Positions 55,881 to 64,000 of a stretch of DNA of 64,000 bases are shown here, piece by piece. Location of the stretch: NCBI GenBank assembly GCA_014860445.1, contig JACZJT010000010.1, forward strand, positions 62,001 to 126,000, written 5' to 3'. Numbering within the stretch: the stretch's first letter is position 1; every line of letters starts with the position of its first letter. Position numbers and translations under genes: made by a program. A model generated the notes under the pieces. It saw nothing but the letters and a program-made list of their open reading frames with translations. It was not told where the DNA came from and ran no database searches. The DNA comes from Burkholderiales bacterium (GTDB lineage Bacteria; Pseudomonadota; Gammaproteobacteria; Burkholderiales; SG8-39).

Positions 55881-55957
55881 GCGCCCGTAGCTCAGCTGGA
55901 TAGAGTGTTGGTTTCCGAAACCAAAGGTCACAGGTTCGACTCCTGTCGGGCGCGCCA
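55881..55957 (+). tRNA. tRNA-Arg (anticodon CCG)
   Basis: 77 bases. Acceptor GCGCCCG pairs with CGGGCGC, followed by discriminator G and an encoded CCA. The D arm has GCTCAGCTGGATAGAGT, the anticodon stem TTGGT/ACCAA closes the loop TTCCGAA with anticodon CCG (reads CGG), and the T arm is CAGGTTCGACTCCTG. TATACT at 55866 may be its -10. Confidence 0.95.
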
Positions 55958-55974: not shown

Positions 55975-56000
55975 AAGCCTTATCGCCGGGGCTTTTTTTT
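55975..56000 (+). terminator. Intrinsic terminator after tRNA-Arg
   Basis: AAGCC pairs with GGCTT (short stem, 10-base loop) and runs into eight T. It overlaps the end of the LysR gene on the other strand. The stem is weak but the position is right. Confidence 0.5.
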
Positions 56001-56972
56001 CGCCCGTCCCGGTTTCGTCCGTTTTGCTCCCGCCGGGTCCTCGATTGGCGCGAACAGAGGTTGCAGCAGTGGGTTGCGTGAGGCGCAAAGTTCGCGCAGG
56101 TGCGCGGTGATTTTGCCGGCTGCTTTGCGCCGCCAGGCAATTGCCAGTGGAGAGGGCGAACGTCCGGCCTCGACCGGACGTTGCACCAGTTGGTGCGTTC
56201 GTATCAGTTCGCGCGCGATTGGACCCGGCAGAAACCCGACGGCCAGCCCGCGTTGATGGCAGGCGATTTTCGCGTTCAGATCCGGGACCAGAATTTCCTT
56301 CTGTCCTGACAGCCTCCAGGCCGTGCGTTTCGTCAGCCGGTGCGAGGTGTCTCTCACATTGACCGCGGGATAACGGCGCAGGACATCGTCGCTCAGCGGC
56401 GCCGTAGCCGACGCCAGCGGGTGGTCGGGTGCGACGACGAAAATCCAGTTGATGACGCCCAGGGGCTCGGTCACGAAATCGTCATTGATGGTATGGAAAC
56501 CTGGAACGCCTAACGCCATCTGCGCACCGTTGCTGATGACTTCGTCCCATACGCCCATGTAGACAGCGCGGCGAACTTCGAATCCGGCATGGGGAAAGCG
56601 CCCGGCAAGGTGCGCCAGCAGCGAGGCGATGGCAGCGGCATCGTAGAGCAGGTTGTTCACTACCAAGGTGAAATGGGGCTCGATTCCGTCGCTTAGCTGT
56701 TTCAACTCCTCTGGCAGCGACTCCAGCCACTCGAATATCCGGCTCGCTTTCTCGAGAAGAATCTCGCCTGAAGCGGTCAGCGTAACCGACCGGGTGGTGC
56801 GCTGAAACAAGGGCGTACCAACGCTGTCCTCCAGCGACTTTATCCGGTAGCTGATCGCCGAGGTGGTCTTGTGCAGCAGCTCAGCCGCAGCGGAGAAACT
56901 GCGCAGCTTCGCGACGCTTACGAAGGTGTGCAGCGATTCTGCATCGATATTGCTCTTCTGAAATTCAGGCAA
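55980..56972 (-). CDS. LysR-family transcriptional regulator
   Basis: 330 residues. The winged helix is at about 10-70 (LHTFVSVAKLRSFSAAAELLHKTTSAISYRIKSLEDSVGTPLFQR, only parts cited) and the effector domain follows from about 95. The start is the TTG at 56972, preceded by GGAG 8 bases upstream; the open frame goes further but contains no ATG near the family N-terminus. The position at the end of the amidohydrolase/FdrA group, on the same strand, makes it a good candidate regulator of it. The C-terminus is basic and Pro/Lys-rich (PGRAKKKPRR), unusual for the family. Confidence 0.86.
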   Translation of the reverse strand: MPEFQKSNIDAESLHTFVSVAKLRSFSAAAELLHKTTSAISYRIKSLEDSVGTPLFQRTTRSVTLTASGEILLEKASRIFEWLESLPEELKQLSDGIEPHFTLVVNNLLYDAAAIASLLAHLAGRFPHAGFEVRRAVYMGVWDEVISNGAQMALGVPGFHTINDDFVTEPLGVINWIFVVAPDHPLASATAPLSDDVLRRYPAVNVRDTSHRLTKRTAWRLSGQKEILVPDLNAKIACHQRGLAVGFLPGPIARELIRTHQLVQRPVEAGRSPSPLAIAWRRKAAGKITAHLRELCASRNPLLQPLFAPIEDPAGAKRTKPGRAKKKPRR

Positions 56973-57091
56973 GTCGATATCTCCGGGCGGCGTAGGCACG
57001 GGCAGGCTGATTCCCCGTGTCGGAGTTGATCGCCGCAAAGCCGCTAGTGTAGACCAGTGCGGCGGCACCAGGCCGACCGGATACCCAGATG

Positions 57092-57982
57092 CTAGGCCGA
57101 TTCCGGAACCGGCTGCCGGGACCGGTGCGCTGCTCGGACCGACCCGGCGGCAGCGACGAAACCGGCCAGCGTATCGTACCCCGAGGTCGCGCCGTGTTCT
57201 GCCACACGTTTCGCCAGCGCGATGGCCCGGGAGGCCGGCGCTCGCGGCAGCGCGCGCACCCACGCGATCAGGTGGCTGCCGAATTCACCGCGCGCGGCGG
57301 CCCGCAGGTAGGTTGCGCTCACGGCAGTCGTCAATTCGGGAAGCGCCGGTCCGAGCATACGCAGCGCCGCGATTGCCGGCGCACCGCGCCCGCGGGTCGC
57401 CCAGGCATGGGCGAGCATACCGACGATAAAGTCGTCTCCAGCGGGTGTGGTTCCTGCGCCGAAGCCGATCAGTGAGCGCAGGACCGATTCTGCCGCAGCC
57501 CCGGTGTCCTGCACTGCGGCAGCGTATTGCAACCAGCGGCTACCGGGTGCGAGCGCCTCGACGGCCGTCACGCCCAGCCCCAGCGGCGCCGCCGAAACGC
57601 GCAAGGATTGCGCCACCGCCGCGATGCCGGCCCGCGCACGAGCGCATTGCGGGTCTAGTGAATCCGGCCTTAGCACTGGACGAAAGATGCGCGCGTCCGC
57701 AGCATCGATGCGCAGCCTCAATGCTCCGGCCTGAGCGCCTGCCAGCGCGTCGCGCACGCACTCGAGGTCCCGCTTGCGCACGACAATGTGCGCCGGCAGT
57801 AGCCCCAAGCCGGGCGCGCTCATAAACACGCTATCCTCCGTGCCGGGCAGGGCGAGTATCGCGCCGTGGCGATGCCCCGTCTGTACGACAGGCGCACCGC
57901 TTGCCAGCCCCTCGGCTACGCTGGCGCTGAGCGCGAGCGGCCTGATGCAAAGCGAGTGCAACGCGTACAGCGGGCCTGTCAC
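57092..57982 (-). CDS. DUF2877 protein (AllH/YlbF type), predicted carbamoyltransferase subunit
   Basis: 296 residues. Carries the DUF2877 signature LIGFGAGTTPAGDDFIVGML (about 168-187) and a HGATSGYDTLAG motif near the C-terminus. Homologous to E. coli YlbF (AllH), a subunit of the AllFGH oxamate carbamoyltransferase. In this window the other two subunits' homologues lie 1-3 kb upstream with an amidohydrolase between. It begins 41 bases after the amidohydrolase stop. The N-terminus (MTGPLYALHSLCIRPLAL) is the first ATG after that stop. Assignment as subunit is inference from family and neighbours. Confidence 0.75.
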   Translation of the reverse strand: MTGPLYALHSLCIRPLALSASVAEGLASGAPVVQTGHRHGAILALPGTEDSVFMSAPGLGLLPAHIVVRKRDLECVRDALAGAQAGALRLRIDAADARIFRPVLRPDSLDPQCARARAGIAAVAQSLRVSAAPLGLGVTAVEALAPGSRWLQYAAAVQDTGAAAESVLRSLIGFGAGTTPAGDDFIVGMLAHAWATRGRGAPAIAALRMLGPALPELTTAVSATYLRAAARGEFGSHLIAWVRALPRAPASRAIALAKRVAEHGATSGYDTLAGFVAAAGSVRAAHRSRQPVPESA

Positions 57983-58023
57983 GACGGCCGGCGGATTTCA
58001 ATGCGCGGCACGAGCTGCCTGCA

Positions 58024-59247
58024 TTAGAACGCGTATTCGACGCGGCGCTCGGACCTCGCGACGATGCGGCCGCGCTTGAGCACTGCACTGCGCTCGGGCA
58101 GATCGATGATCGCGTCGGCGACCCTTTGCGTGTCGAGCAGCACGAGATCCGCGTCCTTGCCGACTTCGAGTCCGTAATTCGGAAGACGCAATGCCCTGGC
58201 GGGGTTGGTCGTCAGCATCGGCAGAACGCTCGCCTGATCATCGGCTCCGCCCAGATGGCATGCGGGCAACGCGAGCGCCGCGATCTGCAGCAGATCGCCG
58301 TTTCCGTAAGGCGTGAATGCATTGCGCACATTGTTGGTGGCGAGGCAGACATTCACGCCGCCGTCGCGCAGCGCGCGCACCGGCGTCAGCGTGCGCCGCA
58401 CATTGGTCTCGTCCTTGCGCCCGCCCAGATGCAGGTCCGTTGCCGGCAGGCACATCACCGAAATACCTGCGTCGCGCAGCAACGCGATTATTTCCTTGCG
58501 GCGCGCCGGCGCCGCGGCGCCGAGCGCAGTCAGATGGCCCACGCAGACCCGCCCCTGGTAATTTTGTGCAATGGTTAGTCTTGCGAGATATTCGATCGAC
58601 ATCGCGTCGGCGTCGTCGTGGAAATCCTGGTGGAAATCGAGATCCTTGTCGAAATCGCGCGCCAGCCGGAACACCCAGTCGATGTGCTCGCGCGCATCGC
58701 TGTCGTTGTAAGGGATGCCGCCGACCACGTCCGCGCCTTTTTTCATCGCTTCGACCATCATCGCTTCGGTGCCCGGCGTCTTGAGTATGCCTTCCTGCGG
58801 AAACGCGACGACCTGGATGTCGATCACGCCGGCAAATTCGCGGCGCAAGTCGAGCACAGTGTCGAAGCCCGTGAATCCCTGCGCCGGATCGAATTCGGCG
58901 TGGGCGCGCACGTGGGTGCTGCCGAATCCGACCAGTTGGCGCAGCAGTCGGCGCGAACGGGCCTCGATGTCCTCGCGCGTGAAGCTCGGCTTGAGGGAGG
59001 CGGTGACCTCGATCGCCTCCAGCAGCGTCCCCGAGCGGTTCGGCTTGCGATCCATCACGAAGGCTTTTTCCAGATGCAGGTGGCTTTCGACCAGGCCGGG
59101 AATCAGCACGCGCCCCGCGGCGTCGATCTCGGTCGCACCGCGGCATTCGAGTTTCGGCGCGATGGCCGCGATCTTCCCCCCGGCTAGGGCCAGATCCATC
59201 AATGGCGCAGCGTCATCCAGGCGCGCTTGGCGAAATACGAGATCCAT
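58024..59247 (-). CDS. Cytosine-deaminase-like amidohydrolase with altered active site
   Basis: 407 residues, starting at the ATG 59247 (28 bases after the DUF1116 stop). The TIM-barrel amidohydrolase fold has metal ligands HLH (His56, His58), His206 in DFHQDFHDD and His238 in GHLTAL, as in CodA. Two residues expected from CodA differ: the catalytic Glu that follows the third His (HCDE in CodA) is Phe209 here, and the metal-binding Asp of the GHDD motif is Asn305 in LATNNVRNAF. Otherwise FTPYGNGDLLQ matches the family. It is probably a hydrolase of an amide or ring compound, substrate unknown. The altered residues make plain cytosine deaminase activity unlikely. Confidence 0.82.
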   Translation of the reverse strand: MDLVFRQARLDDAAPLMDLALAGGKIAAIAPKLECRGATEIDAAGRVLIPGLVESHLHLEKAFVMDRKPNRSGTLLEAIEVTASLKPSFTREDIEARSRRLLRQLVGFGSTHVRAHAEFDPAQGFTGFDTVLDLRREFAGVIDIQVVAFPQEGILKTPGTEAMMVEAMKKGADVVGGIPYNDSDAREHIDWVFRLARDFDKDLDFHQDFHDDADAMSIEYLARLTIAQNYQGRVCVGHLTALGAAAPARRKEIIALLRDAGISVMCLPATDLHLGGRKDETNVRRTLTPVRALRDGGVNVCLATNNVRNAFTPYGNGDLLQIAALALPACHLGGADDQASVLPMLTTNPARALRLPNYGLEVGKDADLVLLDTQRVADAIIDLPERSAVLKRGRIVARSERRVEYAF

Positions 59248-59275
59248 AAGCGCGTACTTTAACAGGACGCTGCGC

Positions 59276-60538
59276 TTATGCCTGCAGCCCTCTTGCGGCC
59301 GCCAGAGCCTCCAGCGCCTGCTCGAAACAGCCAAGCGGCGGGCGCACGGTGCCCGCGCCGACCTGTCCGATGCCCGCTTTGCGATGGGCGATGCCGGTGT
59401 TGATCACGGGGGTGATGCCGGTCTCGACCACCCGCCGTACGTCCAGCCCGAGACAGGCGCCCTGATAGTCCCAGGTGGGAATCAGGAACATGGGGTTGGC
59501 GTCGAGATAGATTTCGCGCATTTCCTCGCTGATTTCCAGCGCTTCGGAAAAGCCGCCGGCGCCGACGAAGCGGGTAACGCCGGGCGCGGCGATCATCGCC
59601 GCGCCGCCTATGCCCAGGCATTCGGTGATCGCGCTGTCGCCGATGTCGGGGTTGGCGTCGTCCTGCGAGTAACCGGTGAAGAACAGGCCGACCGGCATGT
59701 TGACGGGGGCGGTGAACCAGCGCGCGCCCAAGCCGCTCACGCGGATGCCGAAATCGCGGCCGTTGCGCGTCATCGCGGTGACGATGCTGCCGTCCCCCAC
59801 TTTGGCTGCGGTGTCCATCACGCACTTGCCGTAAGCCATGGCAATGTTGAGGAAGAACTGGTCGGTGCGCCCGAGAAAGCGCAGCACTTCCTGCTGTGCC
59901 TCAACGCCGGCGTCGCTGCCTGCGATATCGGCGGCCAGTGCCTTCAGCAGCAGCGCCGAAGCAGCGATATTGCGCTGGTGAAACTCATCGCCCATGGTGA
60001 TCGCCTGCGCCATCAGCGCGGTGAGGTCTATCCCGTCCGGAATGCGCGCCAGCGCCGCAGACAGCGTCGGTCCGAGCACGTCGCGCATCCAGGCGAGACG
60101 CGTCTGCACCTCGCCCTCGAACGCGCCGAAGCGCATCACCTTGCCGATGCCCTCGTTGAGATTGCAGTAGGCGTAGTTGCCCTGCTCGGCATTGCGCACC
60201 ACCAGCACCGGCATGTGCGCCGAGGTGATCCCGCCCATGGGGCCGACTGCCGAATGGTCATGGCAGGGCAGGAAACGGACCTTGCCCGAGGCGGCGAGCG
60301 ACTCGGCCGCAGCAGCGTCCGCCGCCCAGCCTTCGAACATGCAGGCGCCGAGCACGGCGCCCTGCATCGGCCCGGTCATGTCCGGCCACGCGATCGGCGG
60401 ACCGGCGTGCAGCAGCGCATAGCCCTCATTCAGCGCCGGGATGCATTCCTTGGCGGGCTTTACGTCGAGCAGGCGGGGGCGCGCCCGTTTGATTTCCGCG
60501 ATCACCGCGGCATTGGCTTGGTTCAGGGTCTCATACAC
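59276..60538 (-). CDS. DUF1116 protein (AllG/YlbE type), predicted carbamoyltransferase subunit
   Basis: 420 residues, close to the length of E. coli YlbE (AllG). Conserved stretches include ANAAVIAEIKRARPRLLDV at the start, FLPCHDHSAVGPMGGITSAHMPV near 89, AITMGDEFHQRN near 184 and TAMTRNGRDFGIRVSG near 258. The AllG homologue of the oxamate carbamoyltransferase. It starts 15 bases after the FdrA gene, so it is in the same transcript. Confidence 0.85.
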   Translation of the reverse strand: MYETLNQANAAVIAEIKRARPRLLDVKPAKECIPALNEGYALLHAGPPIAWPDMTGPMQGAVLGACMFEGWAADAAAAESLAASGKVRFLPCHDHSAVGPMGGITSAHMPVLVVRNAEQGNYAYCNLNEGIGKVMRFGAFEGEVQTRLAWMRDVLGPTLSAALARIPDGIDLTALMAQAITMGDEFHQRNIAASALLLKALAADIAGSDAGVEAQQEVLRFLGRTDQFFLNIAMAYGKCVMDTAAKVGDGSIVTAMTRNGRDFGIRVSGLGARWFTAPVNMPVGLFFTGYSQDDANPDIGDSAITECLGIGGAAMIAAPGVTRFVGAGGFSEALEISEEMREIYLDANPMFLIPTWDYQGACLGLDVRRVVETGITPVINTGIAHRKAGIGQVGAGTVRPPLGCFEQALEALAAARGLQA

Positions 60539-60553
60539 GATGCGTGCTCCGTT

Positions 60554-62218
60554 TCATTGCATTTGGGCGATCAGGCGCTGCAGCCGTTCATTGCCGCCGG
60601 CCGCGGGTTCCCACTGCTGGTGAACCACTTGGACGCCGTTGGCGTGCAGGTCGTCGGCAAAGCTGCGCAGTCCGACGTTGACTATGGCCGGCTTGGCGCA
60701 CAGTAGCGCCGGCGGCGCGCCCACCGCCGGCGCTTTCGCGGCGATCACGCGCGTCGCAAGCAGCACGGCCGTGCGCACGCTGTCGGCGACGACGATGCCG
60801 GCCTCTTTGAGTTTGCCGGCCTGACTGTCGCGGTCCTGGGGATCCCCGGCCGTGCCTGTGAGTGTGGCAATGGCAACGATAGGCGATTGGTCGCCACGCG
60901 CCGCGCGCAACGCCGTCACCGCGCGGGCCACCTCGCCTGCGGGGTCGGGCTGCGCGCCGTAGCCGAGCACCACATCGAGCAGCAATACCCCGATCGCCGT
61001 ATCGTCCGAGAGTCGCCGGATCATCTCGTTGCGTGAGGAAGAATCGATCATCGGGTGCGGCCGGCTCCGGGTATACGCGTCGTCGCCCAGGTCGATTATT
61101 CGATGTCCGGCGGCGCGCAGCATGTATCCGTCCGCATGCGCCGCGTCTGACGCGAGATCCAGGGCTTCGGCCAGCAGGAGTGCGGCTTCGGCGGCCAGTG
61201 TCCCGCCGGTATAAAGGCCGCATATGCCCTGCCGCGCGACGCTTGGCAATTCGCCGGCCAGGGTGTCCATGTTGGCGAGCTCGAGCGCCAGCGCCGCTGC
61301 GGCGTCGAGCGTGCGCACCAGATGCACGTTGCCGATGTCGCAACGCGTCGGCCGCTCGCCCAGAAACAGCGCGACTACCGGTTTGCCGATGGCCTGCATC
61401 GCCTCCAGAACGCGTGCCTTGACCGCCGGGGCTGGCGGCTTGGAGACGAACACGATGACGCGGCTGGCGGCGTCGTTCGCCACCAGGCCCAGCGCCGTGA
61501 TTGCGCTCATGCCGCCGATGTGCTCGGACAGATCGCGGCCGCCGAGGCCCAGTGCGTGCGAAACGCCGCCACCCCGAAGCGCGATCTGCGAGGCGAGCTC
61601 CTGAATCCCCGTGCCTGAGGCGCCCACTATCGCTATCGGTCCTGGGGGCATGCGGTTGGAAAACGCGAGCGGCGCTCCGTTGATGATCGCCGTGCCGCAG
61701 TCGGGACCCATCACGAGCAGCCCGCGCATTGCGGCAACGGTCTTGAGCTCGAGCTCCTGCTCCAGGCTCACGTTGTCGGAGAACATCATTACATGGCAGC
61801 CGTCCTCAAGCGCCTGCCGCGCCGGCGCGAAGGCGTAGTGTCCTGCGATTGAGATCAGCGCGATATTGGCGTCGGGCAGAAGCTGGCGCGCGCGCCGCCA
61901 ACTGCGCACCACCGGGTAGCCCGCATTGCGCCTGCCGCGTGCGAGTTCCGCGAGCCGCGCCTTCACCTGCTTCGCCATGGATTCCGCGATCGCCGGATCG
62001 CCGCTGTCGCTGTCGACGACGAGGCAGAGGTCGTTCGGCGTGGCGGCTGCGAGCGTATCGTGCCAATGTCCGGTCTCCCTGTACACATCCTTGTTGGCCG
62101 GGGTTCCCATCATCACCGCGACGGATTTGACGCCGGGCAATGCAGAGAGATCCCGCGACAGCAGCATCAGCGTGACCGAATCCTGAAACGTGCCTTTGAT
62201 CAGCAGCGCGTGTAACAC
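60554..62218 (-). CDS. FdrA (AllF type), acyl-CoA-synthetase-like subunit of a carbamoyltransferase
   Basis: 554 residues, the same length as E. coli FdrA. Succinyl-CoA-synthetase-alpha-like fold: GPIAIVGASGTGIQELASQIALRGG near 192-216 is a CoA-binding-like loop, GPDCGTAIINGAPLAF is near 171, and GLYTGGTLAAEAALLL near 336 begins the ligase-type half. The C-terminus (AIVNVGLRSFADDLHANGVQVVHQQWEPAAGG) is a conserved extension. FdrA is the AllF subunit of E. coli AllFGH, which phosphorolyses oxalurate into oxamate and carbamoyl phosphate. It is 149 bases downstream of the carbamate kinase gene. Confidence 0.88.
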   Translation of the reverse strand: MLHALLIKGTFQDSVTLMLLSRDLSALPGVKSVAVMMGTPANKDVYRETGHWHDTLAAATPNDLCLVVDSDSGDPAIAESMAKQVKARLAELARGRRNAGYPVVRSWRRARQLLPDANIALISIAGHYAFAPARQALEDGCHVMMFSDNVSLEQELELKTVAAMRGLLVMGPDCGTAIINGAPLAFSNRMPPGPIAIVGASGTGIQELASQIALRGGGVSHALGLGGRDLSEHIGGMSAITALGLVANDAASRVIVFVSKPPAPAVKARVLEAMQAIGKPVVALFLGERPTRCDIGNVHLVRTLDAAAALALELANMDTLAGELPSVARQGICGLYTGGTLAAEAALLLAEALDLASDAAHADGYMLRAAGHRIIDLGDDAYTRSRPHPMIDSSSRNEMIRRLSDDTAIGVLLLDVVLGYGAQPDPAGEVARAVTALRAARGDQSPIVAIATLTGTAGDPQDRDSQAGKLKEAGIVVADSVRTAVLLATRVIAAKAPAVGAPPALLCAKPAIVNVGLRSFADDLHANGVQVVHQQWEPAAGGNERLQRLIAQMQ

Positions 62219-62242
62219 AATCGATTCTCTCCCTGGGCTAGT

Positions 62243-62257
62243 GGACTACGCCGTAGT
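62243..62257. promoter_or_regulatory. Short perfect inverted repeat before fdrA
   Basis: GACTAC-GCC-GTAGTC, 6-base arms, 25 bases before the fdrA ATG. Possible operator or RNA hairpin that affects translation of fdrA. Confidence 0.3.
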
Positions 62258-62367
62258 CGCGGGCGCAAGCATGAGGCACTTCAATCCTTGATTGGATGAC
62301 AACGCAACGTTCGCCATTTTCCTCTTCGTCTGGGTTGCATGGCGAAGCAGATTGCAGCCACCTGGCT

Positions 62368-63405
62368 CTAATCCGCTTCTCCAATCGATCGGCGCTCGGC
62401 CTCGCTGTTGATCGCCGCTATCGACCGGCGGAGGTCCAGGTCCGCGTCGTGCACGATGTGCGTGCCGGTGTCACCGCGCAATGCGGGAACGGCTGTGTGC
62501 AGGCTGGTGATGATCACGCGCTTGCCGCCTTCTTCGAGAAAGCGCAGCGCCGCCTCCACTTTCGGCCCCATGCTTCCCGCCGGAAAGTGGCCGGCGGCCA
62601 GGTAGTCGCGCATCTGCGACAAAGAAACCCGATCAAGGTCGCGCTGGTTCGGCTTGCCGAAATTGAGCGCGACGCGCGGCACCGGTGTCAGGATCATCAT
62701 GTCGCGGATGCCGAGGACGTTCGCCATTACGCCCGTGGTGAGGTCTTTGTCAATGACCGCGTTCACGCCATGGCGGCGGCCGCGGTCGTCGCGCACTACC
62801 GGAATGCCGCCGCCGCCGCCGGCGATGACCACGGTCTTGGTGCACATGAGCGACTCGACCAGCGAAATGTCGCAAATGTGCTTGGGCTTGGGCGAAGCGA
62901 CCACGTAGCGCCAGCCGCGCCCGGAATCCTCCCTCACTTGCACGCCGAGTTCTACACCGATCGCTTTGGCCTCGGCCTCGCTGAAGAACGGGCCCACCGG
63001 CTTGGTGGGGTTGCTGAAGCCGGGGTCGTCCGCGTCGACCTCCACCTGTGTCACCAGGCCGACTACGTGGCGCGGATTGCCCACCTCGCGCAGCGCGTTT
63101 TCGAACGCTTGCGCGAGGATGTAGGCAGTGGCGCCCTGGGTCTGGGCCACCAGCATATCGAGCGACTGCGGCGGAATGCGCGAACGCGCAATGGCGCCGG
63201 CGAGCAGCAGCTTGCCGACCTGGGGGCCGTTACCATGAACGATGACCAGCTGATTGTCGAGTTGCAGCAGCGGCAGCACCGTCTTCGCCGTTTCGGCGGC
63301 GATCGCTTTCTGTTCTTCTGGCGTGCCTTTGCCGTCGGCCGGGTCGATCGCATTGCCCCCGATGGCGACGATCAGGCGGCGAGGTATCGCGAAGGGTTTA
63401 TTCAT
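62368..63405 (-). CDS. arcC: Carbamate kinase
   Basis: 345 residues. Amino-acid-kinase fold with VAIGGNAI near 13, VHGNGPQVGKL near 56, VIAGGGGGIPV near 214 and AVIDKDLTTG near 235. It makes ATP and carbamate from carbamoyl phosphate and ADP. The context (FdrA and DUF1116/2877) is that of E. coli allK (ybcF) rather than the arginine deiminase pathway, because no arginine deiminase or ornithine carbamoyltransferase is near. Confidence 0.92.
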   Translation of the reverse strand: MNKPFAIPRRLIVAIGGNAIDPADGKGTPEEQKAIAAETAKTVLPLLQLDNQLVIVHGNGPQVGKLLLAGAIARSRIPPQSLDMLVAQTQGATAYILAQAFENALREVGNPRHVVGLVTQVEVDADDPGFSNPTKPVGPFFSEAEAKAIGVELGVQVREDSGRGWRYVVASPKPKHICDISLVESLMCTKTVVIAGGGGGIPVVRDDRGRRHGVNAVIDKDLTTGVMANVLGIRDMMILTPVPRVALNFGKPNQRDLDRVSLSQMRDYLAAGHFPAGSMGPKVEAALRFLEEGGKRVIITSLHTAVPALRGDTGTHIVHDADLDLRRSIAAINSEAERRSIGEAD

Positions 63406-63472
63406 TGTTGCCGGTCTCCAACAAACGCGATTGCGGAATAAGATCAGGATTCAGTTGAGGGCGCAAGCAGGT

Positions 63473-63495
63473 ATTGTTTGAATCTTTCGAGCAAT
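63473..63495. promoter_or_regulatory. Imperfect 23-bp palindrome upstream of carbamate kinase gene
   Basis: ATTGTTTGAA-TCT-TTCGAGCAAT; the arms agree in 8 of 10 positions. It lies 68-90 bases upstream of the arcC ATG in the 149-base gap after the transporter ATPase gene. It has the size and symmetry of a dimeric-regulator operator. Confidence 0.5.
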
Positions 63496-63554
63496 CGGGA
63501 GCGCCGCCGCGGGGGGAAGGGGGTTCTTGGCGAGGGGCGTTCGCAGCCCTAGCC

Positions 63555-64000
63555 TCAATGTGCGGTGTCTGCCTGCGTGCCTAGGTAAGCCCGATGCAGG
63601 GCGCCGTCGGCCGCAATCTCGGCCGCAGTTCCCGACGCGACGATGGTCCCGCTCTCGATCACGTAGGCGCGGTCGGCCAGGGCGAGCGCGAGGCCTGCCA
63701 TCTGATCCACCAGCAGGATGGTGACCTTCTCGCCGCGCAATCTATCGAGTACCGCAAACAGGTCGTTGATCACGGCTGGCGCGAGGCCGAGCGACGGTTC
63801 GTCCAGCAGCAGCAGGCGCGGCCGCGACATCAGGCCGCGCGCCACCGCGAGCATCTGCTGCTCGCCGCCGGACAGGAGGCCGGCGCGCTGGTGCCGGCGA
63901 TCGCGCAACTTCGGAAAGCGCTCGAACATGGCCTCGATGTCCTGCTCCTGCGCGTCGCGCCTGAGAAACGCGCCCAGACGAATATTGTCGCTTACGCTCA
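63555..64000 (-). CDS. Branched-chain/amide-type ABC transporter ATPase (LivF type), 5' end outside window
   Basis: The final 148 codons are seen; the start lies beyond the window. LSGGEQQMLAVARGLMSRPRLLLLDEPSLGLAP carries the ABC signature and Walker B (LLLLDEPS), and the end (IESGTIVASGTAAEIAADGALHRAYLG) is typical of LivF. Upstream genes (LivG, permeases, binding protein) are expected outside. The product powers uptake of amino acids, amides or urea-like compounds. Its stop is 149 bases before carbamate kinase, on the same strand. Confidence 0.88.
   Translation of the reverse strand, partial: SVSDNIRLGAFLRRDAQEQDIEAMFERFPKLRDRRHQRAGLLSGGEQQMLAVARGLMSRPRLLLLDEPSLGLAPAVINDLFAVLDRLRGEKVTILLVDQMAGLALALADRAYVIESGTIVASGTAAEIAADGALHRAYLGTQADTAH

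Follow-up and report, generated by a model that had tools for sequence, protein, structure and literature searches.

The right end of a 64,000-nucleotide stretch of a Burkholderiales genome (assembly GCA_014860445.1, contig JACZJT010000010.1, positions 62,001 to 126,000; hereafter the window) carries a leftward-read operon in which a cytosine-deaminase-like amidohydrolase, named AmdH here, lies among genes for an ATP-binding cassette importer, a carbamate kinase, the AllF, AllG and AllH proteins (AllFGH) and a LysR-type regulator. In a reading whose chances we judge evenly balanced from the sequence, this island would encode a self-sufficient pathway that takes up a cyclic ureide and converts it through oxalurate to ammonia and ATP, with AmdH as an oxalurate-yielding feeder in place of AllB, AllC and AllD. 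What is new in the island is AmdH, as the putative feeder, with the changes in its active site. An initial annotation of the window had described a carbamoyl phosphate-yielding catabolic island with an importer and a carbamate kinase, and had held that its amidohydrolase is not an allantoinase; both views are supported here.

Gene content and order of the island

The source genome comprises 4.6 Mb in 73 contigs and is 99.5% complete. The window's right end cuts the operon, and the seven leftward genes that had been named from the window are all present in the order claimed, with gaps of 15 to 149 bases for the starts chosen. Their families were confirmed with NCBIfam and Pfam, in which DUF1116 and DUF2877 are currently named AllG and AllH. 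The gene annotated as a LivF-type ATPase does encode a LivF domain, but this is the C-terminal part of a longer LivM-LivG-LivF fusion, and the importer genes sought upstream proved to be those of LivH and a LivK-type binding protein on the same contig. Read from its upstream end, the operon consists of the LivK-type binding protein, LivH, the LivM-LivG-LivF fusion, carbamate kinase, AllF, AllG, AmdH, AllH and LysR, so that all three AllFGH members are present with a carbamate kinase gene alongside. In the following list, coordinates prefixed L003 refer to a locus on the same contig (window position = L003 position + 63000).

L003:3969-5198, upstream of LivH, beyond the window: LivK-type binding protein
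L003:3032-3907, upstream of LivM-LivG-LivF, beyond the window: LivH
63555..64000, minus strand: C-terminal (LivF) part of the 826-aa LivM-LivG-LivF fusion, the remainder lying beyond the window (L003:555-3035)
62368..63405, minus strand: carbamate kinase (NF009007, 336 bits, cut-off 266; arcC equivalog 335.8 bits, below its cut-off of 358.25)
60554..62218, minus strand: AllF (FdrA), GTG start (NF004760, 754.5 bits, cut-off 433)
59276..60538, minus strand: AllG (DUF1116), GTG start (PF06545, 315.6 bits)
58024..59247, minus strand: AmdH, cytosine-deaminase-like amidohydrolase, ATG start; putative cyclic-ureide (parabanate) hydrolase
57092..57982, minus strand: AllH (DUF2877) (PF11392, 86.4 bits)
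55980..~56999, minus strand: AllS-type LysR (PRK10094 AllS, 422.8 bits, cut-off 372); start codon uncertain (GTG 56999, GTG 57068 or TTG 56972)

This neighbourhood is not a product of chance, because the gene set and order recur in a contig of a same-genus genome (L039: LivK, LivH, LivMGF, carbamate kinase, AllF, AllG, AmdH and AllH, that is, all except LysR, 71-95% identical) and because AmdH occurs together with AllF/AllG and carbamate kinase again in other phyla.

A probable oxalurate-type AllFGH core

Purified E. coli AllFGH is reported to convert oxalurate to oxamate and carbamoyl phosphate, and was tied to its genes in 2024 as the last step of E. coli allantoin breakdown (PMC11326118). 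In BLASTp comparisons with the E. coli All and Yah proteins, the window AllG matched AllG at 69% identity and YahG at 46%, AllF matched AllF at 52% and YahF at 39%, and AllH matched AllH at 38% over 124 aa and YahE at 28% over 120 aa. The LysR protein was likewise nearer to AllS (49%) than to YahB (39%), and it exceeds the cut-off of the NCBIfam AllS equivalog. The carbamate kinase was the sole core gene product nearer to the Yah set (47% to YahI, 37% to AllK).

The trees agree with these comparisons for AllG. Both the AllG tree (66 rows) and the AmdH tree considered below (67 rows) are quick trees with Shimodaira-Hasegawa-like approximate likelihood ratio test (SH-aLRT) support, made without bootstrap, and their group labels were assigned by us. 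A 24-row AllG clade (SH-aLRT 100) contains eight AllD-adjacent proteins including that of E. coli, 11 AmdH-adjacent ones, four from genomes with AmdH elsewhere and one encoded next to both; L237, labelled AllD-adjacent, actually has AllD about 12 kb away. The window and E. coli AllGs fall in one 7-row set (SH-aLRT 99). Outside the 24-row clade lie YahG and all 31 rows labelled other (28 from the family of the window genome and three second copies). Since the core is closer to the proven AllFGH and its AllG belongs to the same clade, it most likely phosphorolyses oxalurate and not a new carbamoyl compound; we regard the use of oxalurate by the window AllFGH, as a core of a known kind, as highly probable on these sequence grounds. 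The pathway had been outlined correctly in the initial annotation, but the intermediate other than oxalurate that was proposed there is probably wrong.

The enzymes of the island are matched as a set by the E. coli yahBCDEFGHIJ cluster (LysR, DUF2877, FdrA-like, DUF1116, carbamate kinase-like and cytosine-deaminase-like amidohydrolase), a precedent for the gene combination that the initial annotation missed. This shared set, together with the carbamate kinase that is nearer to YahI, could make the island an ortholog of yah with the same role. Such orthology is very improbable, and we rejected it: the F, G and H proteins and the LysR of yah are further from the window proteins than those of the All set, YahJ is 28% identical to AmdH and keeps a catalytic Asp at which the two differ, and a YahJ-like protein follows AmdH in a Clostridium locus (L139), so both coexist. 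No ABC importer is annotated in the yah stretch examined. Among the papers listed in searches of the open-licence PubMed Central (PMC) literature, no assigned function was found for E. coli yahF-yahJ. The YahJ-like amidohydrolase shares a locus with AmdH in Clostridium (L139:11659-12870) and in several Bacillota (L182, L188-L191, L196, L200 and L206), where the two may act sequentially.

A phosphorolytic removal of the carbamoyl group that works with a carbamate kinase in purine breakdown has also been described for the ureidoglycine carbamoyltransferase of Rubrobacter xylanophilus, but that enzyme is reported to belong to the aspartate carbamoyltransferase family, unrelated to AllFGH, and to act in the breakdown of another substrate, allantoate (PMC4016543).

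Genomic coupling of AmdH to AllFGH

We scanned a species-genome collection with an AmdH alignment, and the counts given here rest on the best 80 loci. Thirty of them encode an AmdH with at least 54% identity. AllG lies in the locus in 13 of these; in L154, which belongs to the same genus as the window genome, AllH is found beside AmdH on a short contig; L146 was left out of further search. The other 15 were searched by genome, with AllG found elsewhere in 10 and no AllG found in five, all of them Pseudomonas. As a base rate, a sample of 398 Pseudomonadota gave 15 genomes, among them the window genome, with AllG over its cut-off; this figure covers Pseudomonadota only, though many AmdH genomes are Bacillota. 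Set against this rate, the AmdH-AllG linkage that recurs across relatives sustains the earlier assumption that these genes are not neighbours by chance.

The AmdH tree has a core clade of 28 rows (SH-aLRT 96), made up of 14 with AllF/AllG in the locus, nine with AllG elsewhere in the genome and five that are cyanase-linked. Hence for 23 of its 28 rows AllG is present in the locus or the genome, the other five being Pseudomonas copies in cyanase loci. Seven of the 39 rows outside the core clade have AllF or AllG in the locus. From this association AmdH probably supplies the substrate of AllFGH.

In at least 21 loci the gene directly upstream of AmdH, which we call F2, encodes a permease-like membrane protein of about 454 aa (e.g. 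L139:8603-9967). It gave no Pfam match in the four members scanned and no NCBIfam match in the one scanned, hence no substrate hint; it is possibly an importer of the AmdH substrate. In two Nitrospinae/Nitrospinota metagenome-assembled genomes and one further bacterium (L171, L172 and L177), AmdH and AllG adjoin a divergently read Liv-type importer.

Allantoin genes in the window genome and its relatives

The island resembles E. coli allFGHK in its AllF, AllG, AllH, carbamate kinase and AllS-type LysR. However, the E. coli set is fed from allantoin via AllB, AllC and AllD, whereas the window genome has none of these over the curated cut-offs and carries an importer and AmdH in the operon instead. 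The best matches in the window genome were 193.4 bits for AllB (allantoinase; cut-off 357.85), 254.8 bits for AllC (cut-off 597.75) and 128.2 bits for AllD (cut-off 496.2), so that homologues below the cut-offs do exist, and their functions could have drifted. A hidden allantoin pathway was rejected, as all three fell under their cut-offs. No allantoin gene was seen among the open reading frames of the 9.9 kb from the window to the contig end either, and the absence noted earlier from the window thus extends beyond it.

AllD was searched for in 23 genomes in total. Eleven of them represent 11 of the 21 loci with AmdH beside AllF/AllG among the best 80 AmdH loci; AllD was under the cut-off in nine (with no match at all in eight) and present in L144 and L151, a count to be read with the reservation that several genomes scored as without AllD are metagenome-assembled or drafts. 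Where AmdH lies apart from AllFGH, AllD was present in nine of 10 core-clade genomes, the exception being L131. The remaining two genomes were Pseudomonas, with no AllD over the cut-off. AllC exceeded its cut-off in none of 17 genomes. Because AllD is mostly missing where AmdH adjoins AllF/AllG and mostly present where AmdH stands apart, it looks as if a single enzyme can be fed either by AmdH or by the allantoin genes. In the nine genomes that have AllD and AmdH apart, AmdH follows its own F2 gene, and this permease-like neighbour fits AmdH as an entry enzyme. Combined arrangements also occur: an AmdH-permease pair lies near AllB and AllC in Enterococcus sp. CU12B (L195) and near AllD and AllFGHK in Virgibacillus (L144).

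Altered active site of AmdH

AmdH is related to CodA and AtzC over nearly its whole length, and keeps the HxH motif and two further His of CodA. It stays below the curated cut-off of the cytosine deaminase family (281.4 bits with the best cytosine deaminase model, cut-off 438). Residues are numbered here from the fragment 58024-59253, which gives numbers two higher than a count from the ATG. In a phmmer alignment to the cytosine deaminase 1k6w, H61, H63, H214 and H246 of CodA correspond to H58, H60, H208 and H240 of AmdH. In contrast, E217 is replaced by F211, and D313, D314 and D317 by N307, N308 and N311; Glu 217 and Asp 313 are, we presume, catalytic residues of CodA. Among 67 aligned AmdH relatives the position of the CodA Glu holds Phe in 60, Leu in five, Val in one and Gly in one. 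The canonical Asp position is Asn in 67 of 67, N307, N308 and N311 are all Asn, and D273, which sits in the motif LP[AS]TDL, is always Asp.

Some of the search patterns used to gather the alignment contained HxHxxK, and part of the invariance seen at H58, H60 and K63 follows from that choice; none of the patterns specified D273, N307, N308 or N311. At the position of N307, Asp is retained in ten loci of 33-38% identity (L096-L105) and in YahJ. L091 has Asn there at 38.0% identity, so the replacement of Asp by Asn does not set in at a clear identity threshold. Our guess is that D273 stands in for the lost catalytic Asp. The change makes the catalytic mechanism of the AmdH subfamily a testable question.

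Possible fate of oxamate

In L154 the neighbour of the LysR gene encodes a protein of the gamma-glutamyltransferase fold. Its best solved relative is 5hft (354.6 and 278.8 bits for two chains, the next at 258.8), which we take to be Klebsiella HpxW, an oxamate amidohydrolase reportedly described by Hicks and Ealick in 2016, a study cited in PMC5270733. The window genome has an 88% homologue of the L154 HpxW-like protein on another contig, and one is present in G019, a genome that also has the island. The window genome further encodes an oxalyl-CoA decarboxylase (987.9 bits, cut-off 739.4). The likeness to the Klebsiella HpxW route thus consists of an HpxW-like protein, encoded next to the cluster in L154 and on a separate contig in the window genome; the difference is that the removal of the carbamoyl group would be phosphorolytic here, by AllFGH, and that the island contains no HpxW-like gene. 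In Herminiimonas, Oxalicibacterium, Methylobacterium and others, more distant AmdHs (about 50%) adjoin proteins that belong to the HpxW-like homology group, the gamma-glutamyltransferase family membership of these neighbours having been scanned for L110 and L114. The HpxW-like copies encoded close to AmdH in Oxalicibacterium seem to be those of 42% and 37% identity, and a 62% copy lies elsewhere.

AmdH could also act downstream, splitting oxamate to oxalate and ammonia. It would then remove the dead-end product of AllFGH and yield one more nitrogen, and two genomes that have the island (G021 and G006) gave no HpxW-like gene. We set this role low on gene context and hold it to be quite improbable, given that AmdH is also found away from AllFGH with a permease-like gene of its own, that the window genome, G019 and L154 have both AmdH and an HpxW-like gene, and that the feed of AllFGH would be left unexplained where AllD is missing.

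Proposed route from parabanate

With AmdH as feeder, the LivKH-LivMGF importer would take up a small neutral ureide and AmdH would open its ring to oxalurate. Parabanate is the simplest one-step hydrolytic precursor, for oxalurate is ring-opened parabanate and a single hydrolysis links the two. AllFGH would phosphorolyse oxalurate to oxamate and carbamoyl phosphate, as suggested by clade membership here and reported for the E. coli enzyme, and carbamate kinase would turn the latter into ATP and carbamate, which gives CO2 and ammonia. The HpxW-like protein, whose gene lies elsewhere in the genome, may cleave oxamate to oxalate and ammonia, and oxalyl-CoA decarboxylase may then bring oxalate into metabolism; the genes for both steps are present. 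The AllS-type LysR would control the operon. E. coli AllS is reported to activate allFGHK, with DNA binding unchanged by allantoin, glyoxylate, 2-oxoglutarate, glutamine or oxalurate (PMC12535856).

That parabanate is the exact substrate of AmdH is possible but somewhat doubtful as predicted from the sequence. Parabanic acid is described as a singlet-oxygen product of uric acid that hydrolyses slowly to oxaluric acid at neutral pH (PMC5703782), and an ntrC mutant of Burkholderia cenocepacia is reported to be defective in the use of parabanic acid as a nitrogen source (PMC5491218). No parabanate hydrolase gene was found among the papers listed in searches of the open-licence PMC literature. According to the title by which we know it, a 1965 report by Tigier and Grisolia is said to concern the induction of oxamate transcarbamylase by parabanic acid in a Streptococcus.

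Points against the route and rival substrates

Several observations weigh against the oxalurate route, in addition to the incomplete genomes among those scored as without AllD. The HpxW-like gene is not part of the island, and only four of the 12 genomes searched gave it at E <= 1e-80; at this threshold it was not found in G021 and G006 (both drafts with the island), in the L131 genome or in five Pseudomonas. AllG was not found in four of four genomes with the more distant, gamma-glutamyltransferase-linked AmdHs. The importer is not specific to AmdH, as similar ones adjoin AllFGH of another type without AmdH in the same family. Spontaneous hydrolysis of parabanate at neutral pH (PMC5703782) lessens the need for an enzyme.

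Furthermore, 10 of the 21 AmdH-adjacent AllG rows fall outside the clade of AllD-linked AllGs. They would accord with AmdH feeding AllFGH with a compound other than oxalurate, namely a similar acylurea or ureido acid derived from a different ring (hydantoin, barbiturate or cyanurate) and phosphorolysed by an AllFGH whose specificity has changed. An amidase of the hydantoinase/carbamoylase family (534.2 bits, cut-off 204), encoded just after AmdH in L147, points the same way. So do comammox bacteria and ammonia-oxidising archaea, whose allFGHK resembles the island in being without upstream purine genes and is reported to lie with biuret and triuret hydrolase genes; it differs in these hydrolases, and a cytosine-deaminase-like amidohydrolase is not mentioned in the available part of that report (PMC12625717). 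We nevertheless consider such a compound unlikely in the window genome, where AllG falls in one clade with that of E. coli and a regulator of the AllS type is encoded, and where the HpxW-like gene beside the cluster in a close relative points to oxamate.

The last point against the oxalurate route comes from Pseudomonas. All five AmdH loci of this genus (L132, L133, L135, L137 and L138; AmdH 70-72% identical) carry a CynR-type LysR, a CynT carbonic anhydrase and a CynS cyanase, and AllG was not found in the five genomes. They count against oxalurate because this product does not explain the cyanase. An acylurea can in principle release isocyanic acid, so the same carbamoyl group might conceivably also leave as cyanate. 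AmdH might even belong to cyanate metabolism proper, its product being or giving cyanate, or its substrate a cyanate-derived ring, with AllFGHK or cyanase as two carbamoyl outlets. CynS was detected by tblastn in all five loci, CynR and CynS exceeded curated cut-offs where scanned (L133), CynR also exceeded its cut-off in Wohlfahrtiimonas (L134), the cyn-type AmdH copies form one clade nested in the AmdH core, and G019 has a cyanase-like gene (43%) 3.4 kb from its HpxW-like gene. Yet cyanase beside AmdH is seen in one AmdH subclade only, L138 has three genes between AmdH and CynT-CynS, and L134 shows no CynS in the locus and has AllG and AllD in its genome. A primary role in cyanate metabolism is therefore improbable, and we retain AmdH as the proposed feeder of an oxalurate-using AllFGH.

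Importers, island border and occurrence in the family

The Liv-type importer fits a ureide loosely. Similar importers (LivK 81-86% identical) occur in three loci of the same family, L053, L059 and L068, near other-type AllFGH and a deacetylase gene:

L053:16558-17439, L059:3820-4692 and L068:7296-8174: PuuE-like deacetylase (scanned in L059 and L068); a SnoaL-like gene also lies beside these importers

With 108.5 bits in L059 and 103.1 bits in L068, the deacetylase shows a likeness to the allantoinase PuuE that stays under the cut-off of 424.6. A SnoaL-like gene is found upstream of LivK on the window contig as well. The fusion of LivM, LivG and LivF in one protein has counterparts of like length (774-826 aa) at the same place in L039, L053, L068 and L113. 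AllH was found in 41 of 98 genomes searched in the family of the window genome, and 40 of the longer loci were read, four of which contain AmdH (L037, L039, L047 and L050).

The downstream border of the island is marked by a tRNA gene just past the LysR gene:

55881-55957, plus strand: tRNA-Arg

Base composition gave no sign of recent transfer: GC content per kb is 0.61-0.70 in the island and 0.59-0.66 in the 10 kb leftward, with no clear break; an integrase was not searched for.

Implications

A wider proposal, speculative and in our view unlikely in its full form, is that AmdH founds a previously unrecognised amidohydrolase subfamily, marked by the replacement of Asp by Asn and by the new invariant D273, which opens parabanate, a urate-damage product, to oxalurate and so lets bacteria and archaea that lack allantoin genes gain ATP and ammonia through AllFGH and carbamate kinase, the carbamoyl group leaving as cyanate to cyanase in pseudomonads. 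If the proposed route is true, a version of AllFGH in several phyla without AllD would have its own ring-opening enzyme. It might also explain the 1965 report on parabanic acid and oxamate transcarbamylase, and would offer a simple enzymatic test for microbial use of oxidised-urate products. A group of amidohydrolases for which cytosine deaminases are the closest named models would thereby acquire a function.

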